In this document: piece after piece, positions 47,631 to 52,867 of the stretch | Layout: every line of letters starts with the position of its first letter | Position numbering within the stretch: position 1 is the stretch's first letter | Source: Dethiobacter alkaliphilus AHT 1 | GTDB taxonomy: Bacteria > Bacillota > Dethiobacteria > Dethiobacterales > Dethiobacteraceae | Reading direction: 5' to 3' | Assembly: GCF_000174415.1 (NCBI RefSeq) | Contig: NZ_ACJM01000001.1 | Location: forward strand, 248,001 to 312,000 | Length of the DNA: 64,000 bases | Translations under genes and position numbers: made by a program | The notes under the pieces: model-generated | Database searches by the model: none | What the model was told of the DNA's origin: nothing | Seen by the model: the letters and a program-made list of their open reading frames with translations, nothing else

Positions 47631-48093
47631 ACCGATGAAATTTTCTCACGTTGACCGGGTAGCCCAGATTGAAAAAATGGTGTACCGTTACCCCTGGACC
47701 AGGCATGCCTTTGCCGGAGAAGTGGTGGATAATAGTTTTGCTTCGTATTATGTGGCAGTGGAAGATGATGAAGTGGTGGGATATGCCGGTATTTGGATAA
47801 TCCTTGATGAAGCCCATGTCACTAACCTTGCAGTGTGCCCCACCAGGCAAAATCGCGGTGTGGGCCAAATGCTTTTGTATCACCTGATTAAGGTAGCAAG
47901 AGAAAAAGGTGCCCTGCGAATGACGCTGGAAGTGCGGTTTTCCAATCGAAAGGCTCAGGATTTATATAAAAAATTTGGCTTTGTTTCCTGTGGCGTCCGG
48001 CCCAATTATTATCGGGATGAAGATGCAATGATTATGTGGCTGGAGGATTTGCAGCGCGGCCACGGGTTTGAAGGCGCAGAGGGACAGCCCTAA
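47614..48093 (+). CDS. rimI: Ribosomal-protein-alanine N-acetyltransferase RimI
   Basis: 159 residues, GNAT fold. Seen: IEPMKFSHVDRVAQIEKMVY, the WTRHAFAGEV segment, GYAGIWIILDEAHVTNLAVC, the acetyl-CoA loop RQNRGVGQMLLYHLIKVA (QxxGxG), LEVRFSNRKAQDLYKKFGF and the late YYRDEDAMIMWLE. It acetylates the N-terminus of S18. TTG 47614 lies eight bases after AAGGAGG inside tsaB. Operon place as in B. subtilis ydiD. Confidence 0.94.
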   Translation: MTVTIEPMKFSHVDRVAQIEKMVYRYPWTRHAFAGEVVDNSFASYYVAVEDDEVVGYAGIWIILDEAHVTNLAVCPTRQNRGVGQMLLYHLIKVAREKGALRMTLEVRFSNRKAQDLYKKFGFVSCGVRPNYYRDEDAMIMWLEDLQRGHGFEGAEGQP

Positions 48094-48106
48094 CCGGAGG
48101 AGAATA

Positions 48107-48709
48107 ATGTTTGAAAAATTTTGTAAGCGGCTTTGCCTGCACACTAAAGCAGCACGCATCGCTTTTTTCAGCTCACTGATTTTTATTCTGTCCATCACCG
48201 TAATAGCAATTGTTTATCTCAGTGAAACGCCGGCCATTCCCACTCCCCCTGTGGTGGAGGCCTTTGAACCCACCGAGCTGGAAGCACGGTTTGTCTCTGA
48301 GTTTGGAGAGGAACAAGGCAGGCAGCTTTTTGGCCTGGTGCAGGAATCGGCGGCGGAAGGTGATTATGTACTGCAGAGTTATCATCTTTTGCGCGGAGAG
48401 ACCGCTCTTACTGCAGGTCAGGCCAGAGAGCGGCTGGTTGATTTACAAAGAAACTGGGATGAAACTGCCGGCCCGTTACTTGCAGCGGAGGATGCTTTCA
48501 TCCTGGCTGTAAGCGAAGATGTAGAGGAAGCAATATCACTGGCAAGGCGTGGATTAGAAAGGGGAATTCCCTTTATTAACAGAGCGCTGTCCAGAGCCAG
48601 AGGGAAGTTTTATGATCTAAATAACGTTTTGCTCACAGAAGATAAAAGTGAGAATTATTATGGAGAGACCAGGTTGGGGCAGCTTGTGGAAACGGAAGCC
48701 CTGCGCTGA
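48107..48709 (+). CDS. Membrane-anchored protein of unknown function within the t6A operon
   Basis: 200 residues. A basic N-terminus (FEKFCKRLCLHTKAARIAFF) is followed by one membrane helix (SSLIFILSITVIAIVYLS). The rest is outside or periplasm-facing and mostly helical: FVSEFGEEQGRQLFGLVQES, GQARERLVDLQRNWDETAGP, EDVEEAISLARRGLERGIPF. No domain is recognised. It sits between rimI and tsaD, where most Firmicutes have no gene. CCGGAGGAGAATA is a strong ribosome site. Whether it bears on t6A synthesis is unknown; an insertion into the operon is the simplest reading. Confidence 0.75.
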   Translation: MFEKFCKRLCLHTKAARIAFFSSLIFILSITVIAIVYLSETPAIPTPPVVEAFEPTELEARFVSEFGEEQGRQLFGLVQESAAEGDYVLQSYHLLRGETALTAGQARERLVDLQRNWDETAGPLLAAEDAFILAVSEDVEEAISLARRGLERGIPFINRALSRARGKFYDLNNVLLTEDKSENYYGETRLGQLVETEALR

Positions 48710-48725: not shown

Positions 48726-49754
48726 ATGTCGGAAACACTGATTTTGGGAATTGAAACCTCCTGTGATGAAACCGCCGCTGCCGTGGTGGCAGACGGCAAT
48801 AAAATGCACAGCAATATCATCGCTTCCCAGATTGAAGATCATTGCAAATTTGGCGGTGTGGTGCCGGAAATTGCCTCCCGTAAACACCTGGAGATTATCA
48901 ATGACGTGGTGGCCCAGGCACTTGCTGAGGCAGGCGTAACATTTGCTGATTTGTCGGCTATTGCCGTTACCCACGGACCAGGCCTGGTGGGAGCTCTTTT
49001 GGTGGGGGTAAATGCCGCCAAAACCCTGGCCTACGCCCTGGATAAACCCCTGGTGGCGGTAAACCATATTTTTTCCCACGTAGCCGCCAATTTTCTCGTG
49101 CACCACATCGAATTCCCCGCTGTTTGTCTGGTGGTTTCCGGGGGGCACACCAGCCTTTTGTATATGACGTCACGCTTTGATGCGGTTCTGTTAGGCGCCA
49201 CCCGCGATGATGCAGCGGGAGAAGCCTTTGATAAAGTGGCCCGCGTTTTAGGCCTTGGTTATCCCGGCGGCCCGGCGGTGGATCGTGCTGCCCGTAACGG
49301 CGATTCCTCAGCTTTTGTTTTCCCCCGTGCCTTTTCCGGGCAGGACGAAGTTTTTAATTTTTCCTTTTCAGGCCTAAAGTCTGCTGTTATCAATACACTG
49401 CATAATTTGCGGCAGAAAAACGAGGTTGTTAACACTGCCGATGTGGCCGCCAGCTTTCAGCATGCGGTGGTGGAGATATTGGTGGAAAAAACCCGGGCGG
49501 CGGCACGGTCCAAACAAGCCCAAACCGTATTACTGGCCGGGGGAGTAGCGGCCAACAGCCTGTTACGCCGGCGACTGGCCCAGGCTTTGGAACAAGACGG
49601 CCGCCGGCTGCTCTATCCGCCCATGGAATTATGCACCGACAACGCTGCCATGGTGGCCGCCGCCGGGTATGATTTATTTAAGAGGCAAAAATTCGCAGGA
49701 CTCGACTTAAATGCCACGCCCGTTTTAGACATAAACTGGCATTTACACTACTAA
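48726..49754 (+). CDS. tsaD: tRNA threonylcarbamoyladenosine transferase TsaD (Kae1/YgjD)
   Basis: 342 residues, ASKHA fold. It transfers the threonylcarbamoyl group to A37 of tRNA. Seen: LGIETSCDETAAAVV, FGGVVPEIASRKHLE, THGPGLVGALLVGVNAAKTL, the metal pair in VNHIFSHVAANFL (HxxxH; the common EG between is IFS here), CLVVSGGHTSLLYM, GATRDDAAGEAFDKVARVLG, FSFSGLKSAV, LLAGGVAANSLLRR and the third metal Asp in CTDNAAMVAAAG. Full length. It ends the thiL-tsaE-tsaB-rimI operon. Confidence 0.96.
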   Translation: MSETLILGIETSCDETAAAVVADGNKMHSNIIASQIEDHCKFGGVVPEIASRKHLEIINDVVAQALAEAGVTFADLSAIAVTHGPGLVGALLVGVNAAKTLAYALDKPLVAVNHIFSHVAANFLVHHIEFPAVCLVVSGGHTSLLYMTSRFDAVLLGATRDDAAGEAFDKVARVLGLGYPGGPAVDRAARNGDSSAFVFPRAFSGQDEVFNFSFSGLKSAVINTLHNLRQKNEVVNTADVAASFQHAVVEILVEKTRAAARSKQAQTVLLAGGVAANSLLRRRLAQALEQDGRRLLYPPMELCTDNAAMVAAAGYDLFKRQKFAGLDLNATPVLDINWHLHY

Positions 49755-49795
49755 TGTTACGACCATAACAAGGCCTGTGGTTTATGTTAACCACC

Positions 49796-49877
49796 TGTGG
49801 ATAATGTGGATAAAAATTAATGTTCCCGTAATAATTGGGGTGTTTTCTGTGGATAAGCCTGTGGATTCTGTGGATTA
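49796..49877 (+). promoter_or_regulatory. Cluster of five DnaA-box-like sites
   Basis: TGTGGATAA (inverse of TTATCCACA, the consensus DnaA box) occurs exactly at 49796-49804, 49805-49813 and 49848-49856; TGTGGATTC at 49860-49868 and TGTGGATTA at 49869-49877 are one or two bases off. All point the same way, and two pairs abut at nine-base spacing. An AT-rich stretch (about 49905-49985) follows. Confidence 0.7.
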
Positions 49878-49983
49878 TTATGTAACTTCCGTGTGCTAAA
49901 CATCAACAAATTGTTTAAAATCCGCAGATTTCGCATGCAGCATCTATTTACATAATAATATTTCATAAGTAAATCCGCTTTAA

Positions 49984-50026
49984 TTCGACAACTAAGCTTC
50001 GACACAAGCGGGCTGTGGTTCGACAC
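49984..50026 (+). promoter_or_regulatory. Three Spo0A-box-like sites
   Basis: TTCGACAA (49984-49991; inverse of the perfect 0A box TTGTCGAA), TTCGACAC (49998-50005) and TTCGACAC (50019-50026) share one direction. The last two extend to the same 11 bases TTCGACACAAG, 21 bases apart. They lie about 130 bases before the murC start. The rest of this 400-base gap shows no gene, terminator or clear promoter. Confidence 0.55.
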
Positions 50027-50157
50027 AAGTTGTTGGCGAATGCCGGGGCAGCTTGGTGTAAAACCCTGTTTCACTAACAAATGTGTGCTAATAGGTTCAG
50101 AATAATGGTCTTGTGAATACACTAAAAAGCGAGACTATGGGAAAGAGGGGTCAGCTT

Positions 50158-51543
50158 TTGCTGAAGAACATTAAAAGGATTCATTTTATTGGTATTGGTG
50201 GATACGGAATGAGTGCTTTGGCGCGGGTTCTGTTGGATATGGGATACAGCGTCAGTGGTTCCGACCAAAAGCAGAGTAAAATTACGGAGAAGTTGGCCCG
50301 GGAAGGTGCGGAGGTTCACCAGGGTCACGACAAGAGCTATGTTGACGGGGCGGAACTGGTTATTTACTCCACGGCCATCCCCCGGCACAACCCGGAGTAT
50401 GCGGCGGCGGTGCAGGCCGGGTTGCCTATCTGGCACCGTTCTAAGCTGTTGGCCCATTTTTTAAACGGTCGTTTTGGCATTGCCATCGCCGGCACCCATG
50501 GCAAAACCACCACCACATCCATGGTGGCTAAAGTATTGACCAGCGGAGGCCTGGATCCCACTGCCTTTATCGGCGGTGTGCTAAACGATTTTGGCGGCAA
50601 CGCGCGTATCGGTCGCTCGCAATATGTGGTGGCGGAAGCCGATGAAAGCGATAATTCGTTTCTGCGCTATAATGCCAGCCTGGCGGTGGTAACCAATATC
50701 GAAGCAGACCACATGGAACATTATGAAGGTGACTTCGACCTGCTTTTAAGCGGCTACCGGCAGTTTTTAAAGAATATCAAGCCTGAAGGCACAGCCATCC
50801 TTTATGCAGAGGATCAGTACCTGGGAGATATGGTGCCGGATCATTTGTCGAAAATCATTACTTACGGCCGGGATAAAGGCGACTATCGTGCCACCGACCT
50901 GCGCCCACAGGGATGGGGTACCCGCTTTACCGTCCGGCGCGGCGAAGCGGAGCTGGGAGAAATTTTTCTGCACGTTCCGGGAAGCCATAATGTTCTAAAC
51001 GCTCTGGCAGCAGTGGTGGTGGGTTTGGAGCTGGGAGTTTCCTTTGCCGATATCCAAAAAGGACTGGGCGAATTTCGCGGTGCCGACCGACGGTTCCAGT
51101 TCCTGTACCAAAAAAACGACCTGCTGGTGATAGATGATTACGCCCATCATCCCACCGAGGTACAGGTAACGCTGCAGGCGGCCAGATCCAATAAACCCCG
51201 ACGGGTAATTGCGGTTTTCCAGCCGCATCGCTATTCACGCACCCAGTATTTTATGGACGATTTTGCCCGCTCTTTCGGCCAGGCCGATAAAGTGTTTTTG
51301 CACCGCATCTATGCCGCCAGTGAAGAGCCGCTGGAAGGAGTTTCATCCTCTGTACTGGCGGAGAGAATCCGTGCCCAAGGTGTAGATGTGGAACAAATAG
51401 ACGATGAAAATGAAATTGTGGAAAAAGTATTGGCCATGCTGCAGGCCGGTGATATGGTTCTCACCATGGGGGCCGGCGATGTGACGGAGTTGGGCCATAC
51501 CATTGCGGAGCGTTTGCATGAAAAAGACAACGGACCGGCCTGA
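50158..51543 (+). CDS. murC: UDP-N-acetylmuramate--L-alanine ligase
   Basis: 461 residues. It adds L-Ala to UDP-MurNAc, the first amino acid of the peptidoglycan stem. Seen: RIHFIGIGGYGMSALARVLL (Rossmann), GADESDNSF-type motif as VAEADESDNSFLRYN, the ATP loop IAIAGTHGKTTTTSMVAKVL, VTNIEADHMEHYEGDF, HVPGSHNVLNALAAVVVG, DDYAHHPTEV and FQPHRYSRTQYF. TTG 50158 is chosen (GAGGGG seven bases upstream); ATG 50137 is possible. The other mur genes are absent. The 3' end overlaps the next gene by 26 bases. DnaA-like and Spo0A-like sites lie upstream. Confidence 0.95.
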   Translation: MLKNIKRIHFIGIGGYGMSALARVLLDMGYSVSGSDQKQSKITEKLAREGAEVHQGHDKSYVDGAELVIYSTAIPRHNPEYAAAVQAGLPIWHRSKLLAHFLNGRFGIAIAGTHGKTTTTSMVAKVLTSGGLDPTAFIGGVLNDFGGNARIGRSQYVVAEADESDNSFLRYNASLAVVTNIEADHMEHYEGDFDLLLSGYRQFLKNIKPEGTAILYAEDQYLGDMVPDHLSKIITYGRDKGDYRATDLRPQGWGTRFTVRRGEAELGEIFLHVPGSHNVLNALAAVVVGLELGVSFADIQKGLGEFRGADRRFQFLYQKNDLLVIDDYAHHPTEVQVTLQAARSNKPRRVIAVFQPHRYSRTQYFMDDFARSFGQADKVFLHRIYAASEEPLEGVSSSVLAERIRAQGVDVEQIDDENEIVEKVLAMLQAGDMVLTMGAGDVTELGHTIAERLHEKDNGPA

Positions 51544-52867
51544 TCTGTACCCTTACTTGTTAACCGCAGTATCGCAGGACAATGTGCTGCCCCTTACCTC
51601 GGTATGTAACCTGGGCTGCATCTTTTGCAGCCACCGGCAGAACCCGCCGGAGGTGAACACCTTCAGGCTGCCGCCCCTTTCTGTGGATCAGATATTGGAG
51701 TTGGCGCAGTTTCTGGACCCGAATCAGAAAGTGATTATCGGAGAATCGGCTACCCGCCTGGATGAAGGAGAGCCTTTCACCCATCCGCAGATTATTACCG
51801 TTTTGGAAAAGCTGCGCAGCTTATTGCCGGATACGGTATTTGCCCTGACCACAAACGGCACGCTTTTAACAGCCCAAACCATCGGTAAGCTAAAAGCACT
51901 GGCGCCGCTGGAAATAACTCTGTCTTTAAACAGTGTGACGCCGGCCGGGCGCCAACTTTTATTAGGCGACAAAAATGCTGCCCGGGCAGCAGAGGCGGTA
52001 CGCTCTCTGAAATTAGCCGGCGTCCCTTTCCATGGCAGTTTGCTGGCCATGCCCCATTTGACCGGTTGGCCGGACATGGAGGAAACGGTGGATTTTCTGG
52101 CGGCAGAAAATGCCCGCACTGTCCGTGTTTTTCTGCCCGGCTACACCGCCCGGGCACCGCAGAACCTGCGCTTTCCACTGTCGCTCTGGCCTGAAATCAT
52201 TACCTGGGCCAAAAAGAAAACTGATCAGTTGGGCGTGCCCGTTATACCGGAACCGGCCTGCCCTGACAACTTACTCCCACAAATATACGGAATCATGCCC
52301 GCCTCGCCGGCAGCCGGGGCCGGACTGCAAAGCGGCGACATCATCCGGGCCGTGGACGACAAAGCGGTCCGTACCCGGGTGGAAGCCTATCAGGCTGCCC
52401 GACAGGCCGCTAATCCCCGGTTGAAGGTGGAAAGAAGCGGGGACACCTTTACCGCTTCTATGACAAAGGAAAGGGGACAGGCTCCCGGTTTTGTAATTCA
52501 TTACGATTTCGCCACCGGGCGCATGGACGAAGTGGCCGCCGAAATCCGCCGCCACCGTGCAAAAGCTCCGCTTTTGCTGGCCTCTGAGTTTGCCGGACCA
52601 TTGCTAAAAGAAGTGGCGGCGTTGCTGTCACTGCCTGCAAATTCGGTGTGGGAGGTCAAGAACCGCTTTTTTGGCGGCTCCATCCGGGCTGCCGGCCTGC
52701 TTACCGCACAGGATTTTCTTGCCGCCGCCCGGGAGGCCATGGCCCATCAGCACTGTGATTTACTCCTTGTTCCCCGGGAGGCCTTTGACCACCGCGGAGT
52801 GGATTTGTGCGGAGAAGATATCAGCACGCTAACTGCAGCCCTTAATATTCCCGTTTGTGCAGTGTAG
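51518..52867 (+). CDS. Radical SAM-PDZ-DUF512 protein
   Basis: 449 residues. Radical SAM part (about 20-230): TSVCNLGCIFCSHRQNPPEV with the CxxxCxxC cluster at Cys30, 34, 37, VIIGESATRLDEGEPFTHPQ and LTTNGTLLTAQTIGKL. PDZ (about 250-320): YGIMPASPAAGAGLQSGDII, RAVDDKAVRTRVEAYQAA. DUF512-like C-terminus (about 325-449): VKNRFFGGSIRAAGLLTAQD, DLLLVPREAFDHRGVDLCGE. Usual DUF512 proteins put PDZ first; here PDZ is between the other two. No function is known for the family. ATG 51518 lies inside murC behind GCGGAG, suggesting coupled translation. Confidence 0.82.
   Translation: MKKTTDRPDLYPYLLTAVSQDNVLPLTSVCNLGCIFCSHRQNPPEVNTFRLPPLSVDQILELAQFLDPNQKVIIGESATRLDEGEPFTHPQIITVLEKLRSLLPDTVFALTTNGTLLTAQTIGKLKALAPLEITLSLNSVTPAGRQLLLGDKNAARAAEAVRSLKLAGVPFHGSLLAMPHLTGWPDMEETVDFLAAENARTVRVFLPGYTARAPQNLRFPLSLWPEIITWAKKKTDQLGVPVIPEPACPDNLLPQIYGIMPASPAAGAGLQSGDIIRAVDDKAVRTRVEAYQAARQAANPRLKVERSGDTFTASMTKERGQAPGFVIHYDFATGRMDEVAAEIRRHRAKAPLLLASEFAGPLLKEVAALLSLPANSVWEVKNRFFGGSIRAAGLLTAQDFLAAAREAMAHQHCDLLLVPREAFDHRGVDLCGEDISTLTAALNIPVCAV

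Follow-up and report, generated by a model that had tools for sequence, protein, structure and literature searches.

A tsaD-linked DnaA-box cluster upstream of murC in Dethiobacter alkaliphilus: a probable extra-origin DnaA-titration site conserved in most sampled Bacillota families

Introduction

In the 64,000-nucleotide stretch of the Dethiobacter alkaliphilus AHT 1 genome that we analyzed (hereafter the window), the intergenic region at 49755-50112, with tsaD (gcp) on one side and murC on the other, carries five DnaA boxes, an AT-rich stretch and three Spo0A boxes. What purpose would sites for a replication initiator and a sporulation regulator serve between these two genes? A sequence-only reading of the region had proposed a DnaA-titration or checkpoint site that ties murC or replication to sporulation or, with less confidence, a displaced origin. 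A region listed as 'downstream of gcp; downstream of ydiF' is among the top DnaA-binding regions of Bacillus subtilis in vitro (PMC4447404 Table 1, region 4), with an apparent Kd of 0.15 uM for ATP-DnaA and a DNA recovery about 16-fold greater with ATP-DnaA than with ADP-DnaA at 55 nM (PMC4447404). Removal of all six extra-origin clusters from B. subtilis results in early initiation (reviewed in PMC5295017 and PMC13220808), and the papers searched describe no conservation of any of these clusters outside B. subtilis. Here we examine what the cluster between tsaD and murC is, how far it is conserved, and what its association with murC and Spo0A may mean.

Results

Five same-strand DnaA boxes lie between tsaD and murC

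The features of the region are listed in Table 1. Three exact and two near DnaA boxes in one direction, with two abutting pairs, and three exact TTCGACA sites beyond the AT-rich stretch were located just as the sequence-only reading had described them. All five DnaA boxes are on one strand, and the members of pairs 1-2 and 4-5 are 9 bp apart. The gene just 5′ of the cluster, missing from that reading, was identified by profile match (TIGR03723) as tsaD. Between rimI and tsaD is a 213-aa ORF (48068-48709) whose N-terminus includes a hydrophobic stretch; it matched no NCBIfam or Pfam family. An RNA element at the locus was considered and rejected, as no Rfam match was found up to E = 1.

Table 1. 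Features of the tsaD-murC region, in window coordinates.
Feature	Coordinates	Strand	Remarks
tsaD (gcp)	48726..49754	+	TIGR03723, E = 5e-130; cluster directly 3′ of gene
Bracket motif TTATGTTAAC	49782..49791	+	14 bp 5′ of DnaA box 1
DnaA box 1	49796..49804	-	Exact TTATCCACA (TGTGGATAA as read on forward strand)
DnaA box 2	49805..49813	-	Exact; TGTGGATAA forward; abuts box 1
DnaA box 3	49848..49856	-	Exact; TGTGGATAA forward; box 2 + 43 bp
DnaA box 4	49860..49868	-	Degenerate, TGTGGATTC, 2 mismatches
DnaA box 5	49869..49877	-	TGTGGATTA, 1 mismatch; abuts box 4
AT-rich motif TTTACATAATAATATTTCATAA	49947..49968	+	~70 bp past box 5; inverted copy of upstream bracket motif
Predicted Spo0A box 1	49984..49990	-	TGTCGAA on - strand; TTCGAC in 18/18, TTCGACA in 17/18 family loci
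Predicted extra exact Spo0A box	49998..50004	-	None at this place in other family loci
Predicted Spo0A box at +35	50019..50025	-	+33 to +35 in family; about half of relatives have a degenerate box
murC	50113..51543	+	TIGR01082, E = 3e-155

The whole genome (3.11 Mb, 34 contigs) contains 46 exact TGTGGATAA boxes; were these scattered at random (Poisson), 1.8e-5 triples would be expected within 61 bp. Exact boxes are tightly clustered at just two places in the genome, the tsaD-murC site and one beside dnaA. Chance does not explain the cluster.

The replication origin is on another contig

The canonical oriC was located on contig 11, where a box cluster larger than that of the tsaD-murC site (C11:30725-30809) lies between rpmH and dnaA (TIGR00362, E = 5e-182), with dnaN (TIGR00663, E = 1e-79) adjoining. 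The earlier remark that dnaA and dnaN are not adjacent to the tsaD-murC cluster is thus borne out. Across the 64-kb window, GC skew does not change sign at the cluster and is positive on both sides (0.114 left, 0.032 right). In cluster-bearing complete genomes the median distance between tsaD and dnaA is 0.19 of the circumference, and in 17 of 21 tsaD falls within a quarter turn of dnaA (p = 0.004, kinship ignored and some lengths rounded); the difference in this distance between cluster-bearing and cluster-less genomes is not significant (p = 0.07, kinship ignored). Proximity of tsaD to dnaA is compatible with a DnaA sink duplicated soon after oriC, but is confounded by shared gene order.

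The cluster follows tsaD in most sampled families of Bacillota

We searched for the box 3-5 triple (TGTGGATAANNNTGTGNATNNTGTGGATTA, at most 1 mismatch) in 300 genomes sampled evenly across the phylum and obtained 29 matches, with 0 for the reversed control. Of these, 23 lie on the same strand as tsaD, 134-583 bp past the TsaD C-terminal motif (binomial P about 1e-85). A second sample of 89 loci from 69 families was picked by the presence of tsaD alone, disregarding DnaA boxes, and loci were scored as positive if a same-strand DnaA-box cluster occurred within 400 bp after tsaD. By this rule 53/89 loci and 43/69 families are positive, compared with 5/309 windows further downstream, 0/89 upstream windows and 0/1780 dinucleotide shuffles. 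Box orientation relative to tsaD is strongly biased (242:30), and box spacings peak at 9, 12, 21, 42-44, 51-54 and 63-65 bp, which appears roughly helically phased, as would be expected for cooperative DnaA binding. In 26/69 families no cluster was found within 400 bp of tsaD. Some of these (f13, f19, f56, f111) have it at a displaced position or in other members; three loci that fail the 400-bp rule (f13, f19, f56) carry one 0.8-2.4 kb farther along. One family (f98; L043-L045, L068-L069) has box triples far from tsaD besides its tsaD-linked cluster, most clearly in G236 and G260. The triple of L044 is between argH-like and nadE-like ORFs.

Outside the window's class different genes come after the cluster (radical SAM/DUF512, lgt, ABC-F and others), sometimes convergent ones, which argues that the ancestral association is with tsaD. 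A radical SAM + PDZ + DUF512 protein is encoded 3′ of murC in the window (51503-52867), and several other families have its homologues immediately 3′ of the tsaD cluster; the gene order tsaD-cluster-rSAM may be old. We found no earlier report of phylum-wide conservation of the cluster in the openly accessible literature searched.

The spacing matches that of the B. subtilis gcp cluster

Among named Bacillaceae loci, 27/29 have DnaA boxes after tsaD. Those of B. spizizenii are at +132, +141 and +184, and those of the window at +41, +50 and +93, so that both show 9 + 43 bp spacing; the next gene in B. spizizenii is the convergent ABC-F gene ydiF. Like the B. subtilis gcp/ydiF cluster, the window's cluster is directly 3′ of tsaD and has a same-strand 9-bp pair with a third box 43 bp on. 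Because position and the 9 + 43 spacing are shared with the B. subtilis group, it is, judged by its sequence, a member of this known kind of site. The two differ in that the next gene is ydiF there and murC here, that the B. subtilis cluster lacks Spo0A boxes and the box 3-5 triple, and that DnaA binding has been measured there and is predicted here. DnaA of B. subtilis also binds upstream of trmE (PMC4447404 region 5). In our set, a lone exact DnaA box occurs ~110 bp 5′ of trmE/mnmE, at about 13080 of L009 (G000:C11:33079-33087).

Family and class share a bracketed arrangement

All 18 loci of the window's family with enough downstream sequence, the window's included, have the cluster in the same place after tsaD. 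Their alignment reads TTATG(G/T)TAAC at 14 bp 5′ of box 1, abutting boxes 1 and 2, 42-43 bp and box 3, with box 4 at +12 from box 3 and box 5 at +9 from box 4, then ~70 bp past box 5 TTAACATAATAA-TTTGCATAA, followed by TTCGACA. Box 5 (TGTGGATTA) is invariant in the aligned loci, and box 4 reads TGTGGATAC in many family members. Across the class, the upstream bracket motif was matched in 30/33 loci (3% in shuffles) and the downstream one in 29/33 (5% in shuffles); in most members the upstream motif is at -14 from box 1, or at -22/-23 where box 1 is degenerate. Conservation of the DnaA-box cluster upstream of murC, on which the sequence-only reading depended, holds in these family loci, and the bracket motifs largely keep their distance across the class.

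The inverted bracket motifs TTATGTTAAC and TTAACATAA flank the DnaA boxes at nearly fixed distances across the class. As a genome-wide regulator site the motif TTATTATGTTAAC was rejected: 11 matches with one mismatch, compared with 6 in the reversed control, are uninformative. In three loci of family f5 (L039, L236, L244) the cluster after tsaD is inverted, with its boxes on the other strand, and murC is still next.

In the class, the cluster keeps its link to murC

Within the window's class the next gene after the cluster is murC. The window's copy is the only gene in the genome above the curated murC cut-off, and a second, sporulation-specific murC was rejected on this basis. In all four class genomes in which tsaD and murC are apart (G028, G055, G033 and G052), there is no tsaD-proximal cluster and a triple is found upstream of murC instead; these represent about three independent events, and in G052 contig ends interrupt the sequence. 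The bracket motif accompanies the murC-linked cluster in the three loci read (L047, L278, L279). In the joined arrangement the cluster is closer to tsaD than to murC, so neutral breaks would mostly leave it with tsaD, and its retention by murC suggests, from few independent events, that within the class it has become useful to murC. The tie to murC that had been proposed from the window is thus real at the level of the class.

Evidence from promoter sequences is less clear. TATAAT precedes murC in 1/16 loci of family f1 and in 7/9 of a first set of other-family loci, but in only 4/9 of an extended set of class loci, which makes the contrast weak. We rejected a sigma-A promoter before murC in the window's family, having found none that was convincing.

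Spo0A boxes were added in one family

The genome encodes Spo0A (PF08769, E = 1e-46), and multiple predicted Spo0A boxes of the region are conserved in relatives. TTCGAC keeps its position in 18/18 family loci, with poorly conserved flanks. A conserved Spo0A array beside the cluster is confined to the window's family, and none was found in the other families sampled. The genome has only 4 places with two TTCGACA sites in tandem within 34 bp, and the pattern is not above the reversed control (5 matches vs 5), so the weight of the Spo0A boxes rests on their conservation and not on their count.

One of the 4 tandem places, which serves as a positive control from within the genome, is a promoter in which TATAAT is followed by tandem Spo0A boxes (TGTCGAAATCATGTCGAA). 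The gene behind it lies between rsmI-like and metG-like ORFs, and we take it to be AbrB-like by sequence recognition, its nearest model being the related SpoVT. The arrangement is that of the textbook Spo0A-repressed promoter of B. subtilis. Locus L266 has a tandem exact Spo0A-box promoter before an AbrB-like gene at about 1500-1520, which is likely a conserved Spo0A target in the lineage. The murC region resembles a Spo0A-controlled abrB promoter in its tandem exact boxes and differs in their placement: at abrB they come just after TATAAT, whereas at murC they are about 90-130 bp 5′ of the start, where no promoter could be clearly placed. The likeliest role of the Spo0A-box part, as far as box sequences can indicate, would be Spo0A control of murC.

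The nearest Spo0A box starts 106 bp beyond the last DnaA box, without overlap, and no exact Spo0A box was found in the genome's own oriC region. Both B. subtilis oriC and the window have Spo0A and DnaA sites together in one short region, but in B. subtilis the sites overlap, and the window's region is not oriC. A B. subtilis oriC-type blockade of DnaA binding, which the sequence-only reading had drawn on as its model, is therefore not supported.

Discussion

We consider it probable, at roughly two chances in three, that the locus is an old, position-conserved, extra-origin DnaA-titration site after tsaD, which in the class became joined to the upstream region of murC and in the family acquired a Spo0A array. 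Phylum-wide position and spacing, together with its standing as the sole extra-origin cluster of exact boxes in the genome, point to the tsaD-linked cluster as the ancestral extra-origin cluster. An inherited DnaA-binding, or titration, function is most likely by analogy: the cluster is conserved outside the origin and its B. subtilis counterpart is a high-affinity DnaA region (PMC4447404), which makes titration the best functional guess, as the sequence-only reading had it. E. coli datA, DARS1 and DARS2 offer a functional analogy only; they too are groups of DnaA boxes outside the origin that hold conserved positions and tune DnaA activity, but they are located elsewhere and change the nucleotide state of DnaA, whereas the window's cluster is a set of predicted sites. 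Its bracket motifs recall their accessory-protein sites only superficially.

By extension from B. subtilis, DnaA, chiefly ATP-DnaA, would assemble cooperatively on the five phased same-strand boxes. The cluster would take up free DnaA, probably ATP-DnaA, and delay initiation at oriC; since its duplication closely follows that of oriC in each cycle, it would take up DnaA and so help to delay re-initiation. In the class, occupancy of the cluster by DnaA may in addition influence murC. In the family, the array between cluster and murC would have been added, most simply, for control of murC transcription by Spo0A~P, which may raise or lower murC expression at the onset of sporulation.

The strongest competitor is that the cluster is chiefly a DnaA-responsive murC promoter element, through which DnaA, and in the family Spo0A, couples wall precursors to replication and sporulation, with titration incidental. 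Retention upstream of murC in 4/4 class genomes with tsaD and murC apart, bracket motifs that move with the cluster at fixed distances, and the scarcity of TATAAT before murC in family f1 relative to the first set of other loci all favor it. The weak contrast in the extended set does not, and elsewhere in the phylum rSAM/DUF512, lgt, ABC-F or other genes come next, so the cluster cannot originally have been there for murC control. We regard this account as possible but rather unlikely. Far less credible is a sporulation checkpoint in which Spo0A~P acts on the DnaA complex at the locus, releasing or retaining DnaA. Such a device would fit the constant arrangement that DnaA boxes and Spo0A box keep in one family, but the 106-bp gap between them, the clusters of all other families tested, which have no conserved Spo0A array, and a layout like that of a Spo0A site upstream of the following gene argue against it.

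A displaced or secondary origin would explain why the boxes are accompanied by an AT-rich stretch, which might unwind. Since the only other tight cluster of exact boxes is the true oriC, between rpmH and dnaA on another contig, with more boxes, we reject this proposal of the sequence-only reading as highly improbable; the GC skew, unchanged in sign across the site, and the B. subtilis counterpart, which is not an origin, speak against it as well. Chance similarity or AT-rich background has nothing in its favor except the shortness of the motif, and genome-wide counts, phylum-wide co-location with tsaD, and fixed spacing and orientation contradict it; given the conservation of the cluster, we reject this explanation too, with hardly any doubt.

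Most sampled Bacillota families share the position and box spacing of the titration site that we favor, and DnaA titration as a general control of initiation in Gram-positive bacteria thereby becomes directly testable. The murC and Spo0A additions are a natural case of rewiring. We advance more tentatively, as an idea that is at present doubtful, that a DnaA sink at tsaD, ancestral and common to the phylum, is central to replication control in Bacillota and a counterpart of datA, merged with murC in the class and with Spo0A in the family. If this is true, one nucleoprotein site would tie replication initiation, wall-precursor synthesis and sporulation together.
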